From Bugula neritina (Eukaryota > Bryozoa > Gymnolaemata > Cheilostomatida > Bugulidae), in assembly GCA_964035545.1 (NCBI GenBank), contig OZ037767.1, positions 30,556,128 to 30,620,127 of the forward strand: a stretch of 64,000 nt of DNA. The letters are read 5' to 3'. Under the pieces are notes generated by a model. It saw only the letters and a list, made by a program, of their open reading frames with translations. It searched no databases and was not told the DNA's origin. A program made the position numbers and the translations under genes. Shown in pieces: positions 22,772 through 32,756 of this stretch (position 1 is the first letter of the stretch; each line of letters opens with the position of its first letter).

Positions 22772-25700
22772 ATTACCAGATACTAACCGGCCATTCCCTA
22801 AAAACCACCATGGTTTTACTACTTAGAAGCGCATTAATACGAAGGTTTCTACTTCTAGTCACTGTCACAGTCTCCATGATTTTGTTTCTATATTTATACA
22901 ATAAACTACATTTCTCTAGCATCTATATCACTCCTTCCCAGGCTCTCAAATCGTAAGTATTGTCTAGTAGTGTCATATGTTCCCTGTGAATTTCAATCAG
23001 TTTACCTACTCGTTACTCATTTTGAGTTCCGTGAGTTAATTCATATTTTTTGAATGCTCAAAACTCCACATGTTGCAATAATTTATTAGAAAGATATGAC
23101 TGTATCATTTTTATACATTCTGTAGTTTTATTATGTTTGGAAGATTTTTCACTGCAAGTTCCAAGTTTTAGTATCATCAGCCTTGTAAGTAATAAAATGT
23201 CTAAATTTGGTGGTCATTTATGATTCAGTCATTTGTGGGAACAGCAATTATTGTGATATTTTTCAGGGCAACTAAGCTCCTAGATTATCAGATACTTTAG
23301 TGAAGAGAATCGGTTGTGTTTAAAAACACTGTTGTTTATTTTGTTTACCATCTGTTTAGTGTTTGTAAAATAGAAATGAGAAGAAACAGGTAGCTGTAGT
23401 CATGAGTGACTCATGCATGACTCATATGTTTAATTTTAGTTTCAAGGACCAACAGACTGTACCTCCAACAACCAAGAGAAATGAGGTCACGGGCAACCAG
23501 GTTGATACAACAACGCATAAAAAGGTACATCCAGGTGTTTATAGACACATGTGTAGAACTGTTACCTTTTCAGTAAGATACTGCATCTAAGTGGAAGAAG
23601 ATAACTCTAAGCAAAGCTTCTATGCCTCCAAGTTTTTACACTTTATAAAACCCTTTCAATCTTTTGGAACAAATTTTTTTTCTCACCTATCCGCTTTGTC
23701 CTGTTCGGGTAGCGAAATCTTTTGGAACAAATATTGTGATGATATGGTATAGTCCATTTATTTTAAATTCCAATTTTGTTGCTTTAAATCATTTTGAGAT
23801 GATGTATCTAATACACTAGCTAGCTGGTTGCTTTTAAATAGACTCTAAGCAAATTAAAGGCAAACTCTTCCATCTTTAATTCAGCTCTGCTCAAGTGCCT
23901 CTGTATTCTCTTTAAAAAGACTTGCACTTTCTTTTTCTTATTTATTCACTATAAGTAATATTTATGAATCTTGCATTTAGGTTCCTTCACAGGCGTGTGT
24001 AGCTGGTAGAAATTTTGATAAAGAGAAAGAGTGGGCCACCATTATTGAGGAAAGTGGCAGGAAGACTTCCCAGAAGTCACAGGAAAGGGCGGAGCATGTG
24101 AAGCAGGTGAGTCATTCAGTCGGAATTTCATATCAAAGGCTAGAAAATGGGAACATATGTATCCTGTAGAGTAAGCTGTAGGGTGTATCCTGTAGAGTGT
24201 ATCCTGTAGAGTGTAGGCTGTAGGGTGTATCCTGTAGAGTGTAGGCAATGTTTGAACTAAATTATAAACAAAACACTCCAGCTTTATTAGTGTTATTTAA
24301 TGGTCTAGTCAGAATATATTTTGCTTGATTCAATTTTGATTTGTGACAGTGGATTGTACAGGCCTTTGATTGAACTTCTTGTATTTGGAAATTAGCAATT
24401 ATCAAAGTTAAAAAGCACCTGATTGCTTCGGTTCTGTTGATGAAAACTAACCGTCTACTCTATAAGAGTGAAATGACAAAGACATGACAATAGTCTTAGC
24501 ATCCAGAGCTGAAAGTCTGAACGGTTTTATAAACTCTTGTCCCTTGATGCTGTCTAGCTGTGTGCCAGTAGATTCATTCTTACTATCAAAGTTACTATAA
24601 GCTTGTTGATAGACTCTTGGGAATAAGTTTTAACAACTTTACATAATGTGTAATAAGTTTGCTGTTTGAGACTAAATTAATAAACAGTTCCTTCCTTTTA
24701 ATAACATTGAATAATTTGTCACAACAGTTAGGCATAATAATATGTTATATTATTTAGTATATTATATAATGTTATATTATATATATTATACTCAGGTTTG
24801 ATGACTTTATACTTCACACTGTAGATGATGGTGCATGCATGGACAGGGTATAAGAAGCACGCCTGGGGAGCCAATGAACTGGCTCCTATATCTGGCAACC
24901 CTCACTCCGGGATATTCAGTGGCACTAGAATTGGCCTGACTATAGTGGACAGTCTCGATACACTGTACACTATGGGGCTGTTTGAGGAGGTGCAACTGGG
25001 CAAGATGTGGCTTAAGGAGAACCTCACCTCTCACCTCAATGTCGTATGTACTTACTTCTCTCCTCAATGTCGTATGTACTTACCTCTCACCTCAATGTCG
25101 TATGTATTTACCTCTCACCTCAATGTCGTATGTACTTACCTCACCTCAATGTCGTATGTACTTACCTCTCACCTCAATGCCGTATGTATTTACCTCTCAT
25201 CTCAATGTCGTATGTACTTACCTCTCACCTCAATGTCGTATGTACTTACCTCTCACCTCAATGTCGCATGTACTTACTACTCTTTGTAGTATATACTTAC
25301 TTCTATATAGTATGTACTTACTACTATATAGTATGTAATTGCTTCTTTCTGTCGTATATACTTACTTCTTTGTTGTATGTACTTACTACTTTGTCATATG
25401 TTGTTTAATATCACACCTCCAGCATTTTATCATAATTACTACATTTCACCCAACTCCAGTTTATCTAGACTGTGCTCACGCAAATACCATAGTCAGGTGT
25501 TATAAGACTCAACAATGTGAATCTCTCTACTTATTTCTTTTGTTCCTCACACAAGGCTCAGCTTTTTAAATTTCATTCTTGACACCTGCAGAAGTAAATC
25601 TCATTGTTGAGTTGTTTCTTTAATTTCCACAATGACCTCACTTTCATATATCTTGTGTATAATTACAGAGCGTGCAGGTCTCGGTGTTTGAGTTCAACAT

Positions 25701-31700: not shown

Positions 31701-32756
31701 TAATAGACATTGTGTGGGTGTATTTAGCACCAATTGACTTAGTGATATTACCTTTTTGTTACATCTGACTTCATTGAGTACTGCAGCTATATAATTACCT
31801 GCTAGTCACTAATGATGTGGTTGTGCAGTGAGTAATTGTTTGCTTTGAATAGTTACAATATTTACTCATAAGGCAGGCCTCTTCCTTCCTTTCAAAAGAC
31901 TATACTTTCTACTGGCCCTTTACCATTCTAATCTCACTAAATTTATCTTCTGTTGTTTTATAATTGTTCGTCTAAATTTGATTCATTATGTATCAATATT
32001 CTATAGTCTATACCAATCATAGTGATATTGCCTTATTTTTTATGAAAAATAGAAGAAATGAGTTGCTTTGTGTTTAAGTTGTCTCTATAGTAACCTGTTG
32101 TTTTGTTTGACCTACTTATAATATTTTAGATGTAGAACATTTGTGAGCTTGTTTTCATTTTAATGACTGTTAAGTCAATGTCGTCATGGATACGTACAAA
32201 CTTTCCCAAAGATGGTTGCCAATTACAATATTATGATGGGGAATTAATCCATAATGCAGTTCATCAATCTGATGTCTGCTACTAAATTTAAGTTTTCCTT
32301 CTTGGTTTAACAACCTTCTAGCTTTGATTTGCCTCAATAATATTATTGTTCCCAACTACAGATGGCATAAATTGAAAATTATACTGAATTCACCTGGTAT
32401 TTTATACCCATTTTATAGACGTAATATAAATATATACTAAGTGCACGTCTTAAATAGGCTCCATGTTTGTTATTACCTTGTACTACACATCTCTTGACCT
32501 TTTCTTTTCTCTCTTCTTCTTCTCTCTCATTATTTTTCTCCCTCCCAACCCCTTCTCTTACACTCCTCCCCAACCCTCCCCCCTCTTACACTCCTCGCCA
32601 ATCCATTCCTTTTACATACGTCCTTAACTCATTCACAGTTGAACTGTTTGTAGATATTTATATCTGATATACAAAGACGAAAGCTTGCTGTCGCTGGACT
32701 CGTGGGTATTCAACACAGAAGCCCACCCACTTCCTGTACTCCACCCGTTCACATAA
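22772..32756 (+). CDS. MAN1A: Golgi mannosyl-oligosaccharide 1,2-alpha-mannosidase (GH47, MAN1A type)
   Basis: This type II membrane enzyme trims alpha-1,2-linked mannose from N-glycans (Man9 to Man5) in the Golgi. A 38-nt 5' UTR piece precedes the ATG at 22810 (CCACCATGG, strong context). Coding exons: 22810-22952, 23440-23524, 23981-24106, 24825-25043, 25669-25844, 25967-26061, 26291-26410, 26718-26833, 27297-27417, 27741-27845, 29857-30029, 31023-31156, 32654-32756 (TAA). The product is 571 residues, slightly short of the ~630-650 of vertebrate enzymes because the stem is short. There is a short basic N-terminus, a signal anchor at about 13-31, a stem, and the catalytic domain from about 119. 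Hallmarks are [53 protein letters not shown] and TCHESY (conserved disulfide Cys and acidic residue), [19 protein letters not shown] and the C-terminal FNTEAHPLP (Ca-binding Thr). VGGLLS and GDSFYEYL favour the Golgi MAN1A/C group over ER MAN1B1. Confidence 0.96.
23658..23732 (-). mobile_element. Short retroposed fragment with 17-bp target-site duplication
   Basis: Perfect 17-bp repeats AATCTTTTGGAACAAAT (23658-23674 and 23716-23732) bracket a 41-bp insert. On the minus strand the insert ends in an A tract. This is the signature of target-primed reverse transcription of a severely 5'-truncated element. The insert core, GTCCTGTTCGGGT on plus, recurs at 29621-29633. It lies in mannosidase intron 23525-23980. 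Confidence 0.8.
24160..24245. repeat. Minisatellite of CCTGTAGAGTGTAGGCTGTA units
   Basis: Four to five units mixing GTATCCTGTAGAGT and GTAGGCTGTAGGGT lie in mannosidase intron 24107-24824, about 55 bp after the donor. Confidence 0.85.
25028..25275 (+). repeat. Tandem array of exon-end plus 5' splice site, 28-bp unit
   Basis: The junction AATGTC|GTATGTACTT at 25043/25044 is repeated nine times, with GT of each copy at 25044, 25072, 25100, 25128, 25154, 25182, 25210 and 25238; the ninth copy is GC at 25266. Each unit carries about 15 nt of exon end (CTCACCTCAATGTC) and the donor. The unit lacks stop codons, so the array is open in all three frames. Confidence 0.95.
25276..25400. repeat. Degenerate TACTTACTAC repeat trailing the donor array
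   Basis: Units of roughly 20-28 bp built on ATGTACTTACTACTATATAG follow directly after the 28-bp array. They appear to be diverged descendants of it, keeping the ATGTACTTACT core. Confidence 0.7.
25803..25909 (+). repeat. Two-copy tandem duplication of a 5' splice site, 42-bp unit
   Basis: The 42-bp segment spanning CTCAAGCA|GTGAGTACAC is present twice without changes, placing GT donors at 25845 and 25887. The first is the authentic donor of the exon 25669-25844. Using the second copy would read into TGA at once. Confidence 0.9.
26051..26210 (+). repeat. Tandem array of 5' splice sites, 20-bp unit
   Basis: Eight copies of TCATATCACAGGTGAGTATA, including the real exon-intron junction at 26061/26062. 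Donors sit every 20 bp at 26062, 26082, 26102, 26122, 26142, 26162 and 26182, with a final GTGAGT at 26205. Each copy carries both an ACAG and a GTGAGT. Almost the whole 229-bp intron consists of the array. Confidence 0.95.
26847..27040. repeat. 22-bp minisatellite (ACAGAGTTATAGTGTACAGTTG)
   Basis: About nine units based on CAGAGTTATAGTGTACAGTT, with GTGTA/GCGTA and GTCGAC variants, begin 13 bp after the donor at 26834. Unlike the neighbouring introns, the unit does not copy the donor itself. Confidence 0.93.
27418..27567 (+). repeat. Tandem array of 5' splice sites, 24-nt in-frame unit
   Basis: GT donors lie exactly every 24 nt at 27418 (authentic), 27442, 27466, 27490, 27514, 27538 and 27562. 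The first four are GTGAGT or GTAAGT, and the later ones are diverged. The unit is divisible by three and open, so use of copies 2, 3 or 4 would lengthen the exon by 8, 16 or 24 residues without a frameshift. A stop (TGA) appears in the fifth unit. Confidence 0.95.
27837..28035 (+). repeat. Tandem array of 5' splice sites, 42-46-bp unit
   Basis: AGAGCAG|GTAACTCCAGTG, the real exon end and donor at 27845/27846, is repeated with GT at 27846, 27892, 27936, 27982 and 28024. The unit also contains a TATATA stretch of variable length. Exon extension would meet an in-frame TAG in the first unit. Confidence 0.95.
31322..31590. repeat. 17-bp minisatellite (TACTGTGACTAGTACTA)
   Basis: About 16 units of CTGTGACTAGTACTATA type, with TATT and TGC variants, lie in mannosidase intron 31157-32653. 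The period equals that of the array at 10092-10388. Confidence 0.93.

Follow-up and report, generated by a model that had tools for sequence, protein, structure and literature searches.

Why should so many introns of a single gene open inside a tandem repeat? The question is raised by a stretch of 64,000 nucleotides from the bryozoan Bugula neritina (NCBI GenBank assembly GCA_964035545.1, contig OZ037767.1, positions 30,556,128 to 30,620,127 of the forward strand; hereafter the window), which contains a class I alpha-mannosidase gene. Five of the 12 introns of this gene begin within tandem arrays that lie over the real 5' splice site. The explanation proposed here, to which we give an even chance, is that such arrays are minisatellites seeded at the donor sequence; retention of the first donor would let them be tolerated, and their copy number would turn over fast.

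The mannosidase gene and its arrays

The gene and the five donor arrays, delimited by the joined reading frame and by Tandem Repeats Finder (TRF) respectively, are as follows; a slash marks the exon-intron boundary.

22810..32756, plus strand: class I alpha-mannosidase gene (MAN1A-like, GH47), 13 exons, 571 amino acids
25026..25277, plus strand: 28-bp x 9.1 array over donor 25044, 18 exon nucleotides in the unit
25826..25910, plus strand: 42-bp x 2.0 array over donor 25845, 19 exon nucleotides in the unit
26051..26194, plus strand: 20-bp x 7.2 array over donor 26062, seven copies of CAG/GTGAGT
27417..27508, plus strand: 24-bp x 3.8 array starting at donor 27418, four donor copies, one exon nucleotide
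27838..28039, plus strand: 46-bp x 4.5 array over donor 27846, five copies of CAG/GTAACT

The 13 exons join into a single open frame, and all 12 introns are of the GT-AG type. The best protein match is B. neritina MAN1A2 (P0001; 99% identity over 79% of the query; PF01532), an annotated protein on a 51-kb contig that probably comes from a separate assembly. Its spliced alignment takes in the last ten exons and nine of the 12 junctions, including all five array donors (a spurious empty exon at the start of the alignment is excluded from this count), and at all nine the annotated protein uses the first donor.

Relative to the five donors, in the order listed, the arrays start at -18, -19, -11, -1 and -8. 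They consist of head-to-tail units of 20-46 bp in 2.0-9.1 copies with 90-100% matches, as is characteristic of minisatellites; the two units over donor 25845 match completely and sit in an intron of 122 bp. Each unit carries a donor continuous with the real exon end. The distance from array end to intron end is 391, 56, 96, 232 and 1817 nt, and every acceptor lies outside. The first-pass annotation had placed arrays at these same donors, with units of 28, 42, 20, 24 and 42-46 bp; TRF and the joined frame confirm the positions, and TRF returns 28, 42, 20, 24 and 46 bp. Its estimate that the exon part of the unit is usually 7-15 nt was too narrow, four arrays having 8-19 nt of exon and the array at donor 27418 a single nucleotide. 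The multiplication of donors that it described is borne out, with its figure of about 30 GT donors lowered to 27 copies (9 + 2 + 7 + 4 + 5), 26 of which keep GT. The five arrays also appear to be of independent origin, as it had held, because their units differ.

Four further arrays in this gene, delimited by TRF, lie near or away from the donors; the last three had gone unremarked in the first-pass annotation.

25261-25401, plus strand: diverged 21-bp array directly after the 28-bp array of donor 25044
26845..27040, plus strand: 22-bp x 8.9 array, 11 nt past donor 26834, which it does not span
24158..24243, plus strand: 14-bp x 6.3 array, 51 nt into intron 3, away from the donor
31324..31590, plus strand: 17-bp x 15.7 array, 167 nt into intron 12, away from the donor

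That the copies are an artefact of assembly is scarcely credible: the five arrays are 85-252 bp long and built of different units, P0001 agrees at the junctions, and the paralogous arrays described below differ in copy number and have diverged units. Selection for redundant donors, by which additional U1 sites would make splicing more robust or tune it, had been suggested in the first-pass annotation. GT is kept in 36 of 37 donor copies across seven arrays, and variation is lower in the donor columns (5/266) than elsewhere in the unit (28/663, first copy omitted); this difference, however, falls short of significance (P = 0.11, or P = 0.056 when the first copy is counted). In addition, 16 of 17 downstream donors would lead to a frameshift or an early stop, a count that covers all of the five arrays except that of donor 27418 and, at 25044, all but two diverged copies. 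Because they break the frame, the extra donors would be a burden unless the first one is used. Selection for redundancy is therefore not upheld, and we consider it highly improbable.

Placement of arrays and the donor octamer

A rival account would invoke only geometry and tolerance: arrays arise anywhere, seeds of 20-60 bp in short introns often overlap the intron edges, and overlaps with the acceptor are lost to selection. With the extra copies removed, the five introns come to 79, 105, 255, 401 and 1855 bp, and the four shorter ones, like an intron of 164 bp in a lipase-like gene of which 106 nt are array, suit this account. A naive test overstates the case against it, because the arrays themselves lengthen the introns. 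The null model used here (the short-intron null) places the seed uniformly in the pre-expansion intron, with extra copies removed and overlap with the acceptor barred. Even so, five of the eight mannosidase arrays span a donor against 0.99 expected (P = 1.7e-4), or against 1.66 if the last 50 intron nucleotides are also barred (P = 8.5e-4), both P values being after the fact in a gene chosen because of the pattern. On these terms the earlier judgement that five placements at exact junctions are implausible by chance is sustained. Since the gene was picked for its pattern, evidence from outside it is needed.

Such evidence was sought in a table of 19 arrays assigned to introns, 11 of them outside the mannosidase gene. 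These come from a neighbouring EML-like gene, a Methyltransf_32 gene, the sequence pieces L005 and L006 and two tandem lipase-like genes lying some 20 and 50 kb beyond the window (L028-L029 and L031-L033; 18-55 kb). Exons were taken from a spliced alignment with the protein P0125 for the EML-like gene, from reading frame and splice signals for Methyltransf_32 and L005/L006, and from reading frame, splice signals and conservation between paralogues for the lipase-like genes. Two intron bounds, at 55610 and at the end of the first intron of the second lipase-like copy, are rough or were set by eye. Outside the table stand the minus-strand arrays of L006 and L015, those at 91581-91941, 92229-92594 and 3500-3795, others whose intron is undelimited and, as repeats of arrays in the first lipase-like copy, three arrays in the second. 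Five of the 11 arrays outside the mannosidase gene either span a donor or start within 30 nt of one, against 2.33 expected (P = 0.037). At the acceptor there is no excess, one of the 19 assigned arrays ending within 30 nt of it against 2.29 expected. When 34 arrays outside the mannosidase gene were set against predicted exons, five began no more than 35 nt from a predicted donor (1.8 expected, P = 0.03) and two ended no more than 35 nt from a predicted acceptor (1.9 expected, P = 0.54), the ab initio gene finder behind these predictions serving as an aid only, since after training on the window it recovered one of the 13 mannosidase exons exactly at first and seven later. One piece, L007 (C1:4.00 Mb), has long open reading frames at 56-59% G+C versus 34% in the whole sample and was dropped from later training.

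The donor word itself was then followed through the whole assembly (215.8 Mb) by an ungapped pattern search of both strands for pairs at periods of 20 and 24 bp. AGGTRAGT occurs 21,087 times and forms 398 pairs at 20 bp and 430 at 24 bp, where about one each is expected from its frequency. Two control words were compared: AGCTRAGT, in which one base is changed and no GT is left at the donor position (17,075 occurrences; 29 and 108 pairs), and AGTRAGGT, a permutation with the same dinucleotides that is still slightly donor-like (9,705 occurrences; 47 and 33 pairs). The reversed words gave 3 and 16 pairs (11,998 occurrences), 3 and 6 (13,078) and 0 and 0 (3,951). Per occurrence and period, pairs thus amount to 1.96% for AGGTRAGT, 0.40% for AGCTRAGT, 0.41% for AGTRAGGT and 0.08 and 0.03% for reversed words. 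Because one long array yields many pairs, distinct places were also counted on C1 and C2, the contigs for which the rows of all six pair lists were complete, with rows less than 1 kb apart merged. AGGTRAGT has 32 places (one array appearing at both periods) versus three for each control word, some places being a single pair, in the controls too. Per occurrence this is an 8.6-fold excess over AGCTRAGT (P = 3.7e-6) and a 4.9-fold excess over AGTRAGGT (P = 0.0014). At both tested periods tandem arrays are enriched in the donor word, which the geometric account does not provide for; together with the mannosidase result, this makes that account unlikely. The acceptor word TTTYCAG forms 126 pairs at period 20 versus 19 for its reverse, about 0.11% versus 0.03% with baselines estimated from 220 kb, and many of these look like dispersed repeats.

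Within 349 kb of sequence, 65 of 94 AGGTRAGT occurrences fall in 11 clusters, and three control words form no cluster among 20, 16 and 22 occurrences. Four of the five plus-strand clusters belong to arrays whose start coincides with a checked exon end, two of these arrays being paralogous; the fifth is at 37848-38092 of the window. Octamer arrays also gather near the ends of contigs: once neighbours are merged, C1 and C2 have 31 places, of which 22 lie within 3.5 Mb of an end, where 20% are expected (P = 1.6e-9), which suggests turnover linked to recombination. Strong arrays of any kind (TRF score at least 100) number 31 in 104 kb (the window and L027-L030) versus 11 in the 220 kb of the systematic sample of C1 and C2 (L005-L026), and four of those 11 come from the two 10-kb pieces closest to the C1 start. 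Minisatellites in general may be enriched towards chromosome ends.

Several observations weigh against seeding at donors. Outside the mannosidase gene, donor spanning by itself shows no excess (two of 11 assigned arrays against 1.09 expected, P = 0.30), a value close to what geometry alone would give. The unit consensus of 54 other arrays is only weakly donor-like, nine having P < 0.1 where about five are expected. Splicing appears to keep to the first donor, judging from the annotated protein and the frame rather than from RNA reads. The sense 29-bp array at 37848-38092 is full of AGGTAAGT and has no recognisable exon before it. Lastly, six of the 11 octamer clusters, from four arrays (two of them paralogous), run antisense to the host gene; among the four are the array at donor 25044, where the sense donor reads GTATGT, and one in what is presumed to be the 5' portion of the EML-like gene, outside the coverage of P0125. 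Being a working donor is therefore not the whole reason for octamer arrays.

AGGTRAGT may thus be unstable as DNA, and an effect of DNA sequence may suffice in place of nucleation by R-loops or otherwise coupled to transcription. In its strict form this rival reading holds that AGGTRAGT/ACTYACCT is prone to duplication in either direction and apart from splicing, for instance by the action of a protein of recombination or repair. The antisense clusters occur in as many arrays, four, as do sense clusters at checked exon ends, and the gathering of octamer arrays towards contig ends points the same way. Several spanned donors, however, lack the exact octamer, namely 25044 (GTATGT), 25845 (GCA/GTGAGT), 27846 (GTAACT) and that of L006 (TGA/GTAAGT), and we judge the motif alone an unlikely cause. 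As to the earlier suggestion of a mechanism that nucleates duplication at donors, the link with donors beyond chance is supported by the octamer genome-wide and by recurrence in other genes; donor spanning outside the mannosidase gene does not support it.

Arrays in other genes

In both lipase-like genes the same exon has a donor-spanning array. In the first copy (L029, donor 383) a 20-bp array of 6.8 units supplies six GTGAGT donors and a weak seventh copy; in the second (L033, donor 492) there are 4.0 units, with three donors and a weak fourth. The next intron has a 33-bp array, which begins 3 nt past the donor in the first copy, with 30.3 versus 14.7 units, and the array of a third intron has 3.5 versus 2.5. 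Between the copies, 17 of 440 exon nucleotides differ along this span (11 codons synonymous, six not), as do 11 of 181 nt in the first of these introns outside its array. Copy number thus changes faster than the flanks, which are about 4-6% divergent, a property of minisatellites seen in these paralogues only. The arrays were thus present before the gene was duplicated and have since kept their positions, with lengths changing much more rapidly than the flanks. The two genes, whose arrays differ in copy number in three or more introns, constitute a natural experiment on intron growth. The encoded protein matches Lipase_3 at 24.8 bits (cut-off 22); a protein search gave no match at E<=1e-20, and a PDB search no credible match. 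The gene may be DAGL-like.

A further donor-spanning array was met in the systematic sample. In L006 a 60-bp x 2.7 array lies over donor 1054, with 32 exon nucleotides in the array ahead of the donor, and the next predicted exon, read by eye, continues the frame. Two arrays of the EML-like gene, placed by TRF and the P0125 alignment, lie close to splice sites.

10091..10385, plus strand: 17-bp x 17.4 array, 15 nt past donor 10076 of the EML-like gene
9481..9574, plus strand: 31-bp x 3 array, ending 6 nt before an acceptor of the EML-like gene (exon 9581)

At the 3' end of its intron, the second of these mirrors the arrangement seen at donors, and TACTAAC, a strong branch-point-like word by the consensus, occurs in two of the three units. 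The minus-strand arrays L006:6077-6165 and L015:879-1175 likewise abut a predicted or apparent acceptor or lie about 20 nt upstream of one. At 57514-57611 of the window, a 27-bp x 3.6 repeat lies within a predicted coding exon of the Methyltransf_32 gene, where the frame is kept and a repeat of nine residues results.

Proposed route and precedents

Seeding at donors, the reading to which we gave an even chance, can be set out as a sequence of steps. A duplication would be seeded at or near the donor sequence, which would be a preferred seed in this genome; the seed may be favoured as a DNA sequence or through transcription and splicing. As the coordinates, the frame and the annotated protein show, one intact exon end and the first donor stay in front, so that every further copy is intronic. 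A duplication over the donor would then be nearly neutral if the first donor is still used; duplication of an acceptor would not, in that it would put intron copies into the mRNA. The array, as in the lipase-like paralogues, would grow and shrink quickly while its position is kept.

A precedent for donors supplied by a minisatellite lies in the human interferon-induced gene 6-16 (G1P3/IFI6), whose minisatellite was reportedly described by Turri, Cuin and Porter in 1995. According to one account, two downstream repeat units of this gene serve as donors and three mRNAs result (PMC4526556). The likeness is that a tandem array stands at an exon end and its units supply splice donors. The difference is one of extent, 6-16/IFI6 being one gene, and the present case comprising five introns of one gene, other genes and a genome-wide excess of the octamer.

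Zhuo et al. are said to have described in 2007 introns arising from tandem arrays in human genes. Internal tandem repeats are also stated to change exon-intron structure (PMC2812944), and to that extent the bryozoan arrays resemble both systems. In introns that arise from tandem arrays, repeat copies become intron; here, in contrast, the acceptor is outside the array, so that the bryozoan introns were not made by it. Proto-splice duplication, in which the duplicate likewise carries an exon end and a donor, needs an acceptor inside the duplicate and is ruled out as the origin of these introns by the same position of the acceptors. GYRGYR and NAGNAG motifs are competing splice sites in tandem, and consist of two sites a few bases apart, unlike the bryozoan arrays. 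They are named as tandem splice sites in PMC2891723. A literature search with most subscription papers beyond its reach returned no genome-wide class of donor-seeded minisatellites, and none in bryozoans; in the literature found, the donor-supplying minisatellite is a single-gene matter, with human 6-16/IFI6 as its precedent.

A broader proposition can be put forward tentatively, at somewhat below even chance: the 5' splice-site consensus would act as a duplication seed throughout this genome, and donors, mostly near chromosome ends, would become intron-lengthening minisatellites across many genes. If the donor sequence is several-fold over-represented in arrays, the seeding of minisatellites becomes testable, and so does the choice of the spliceosome among many equal donors in a row. 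If the reading is true, introns would grow from their 5' end without mobile elements, by a mutational route of donor multiplication.

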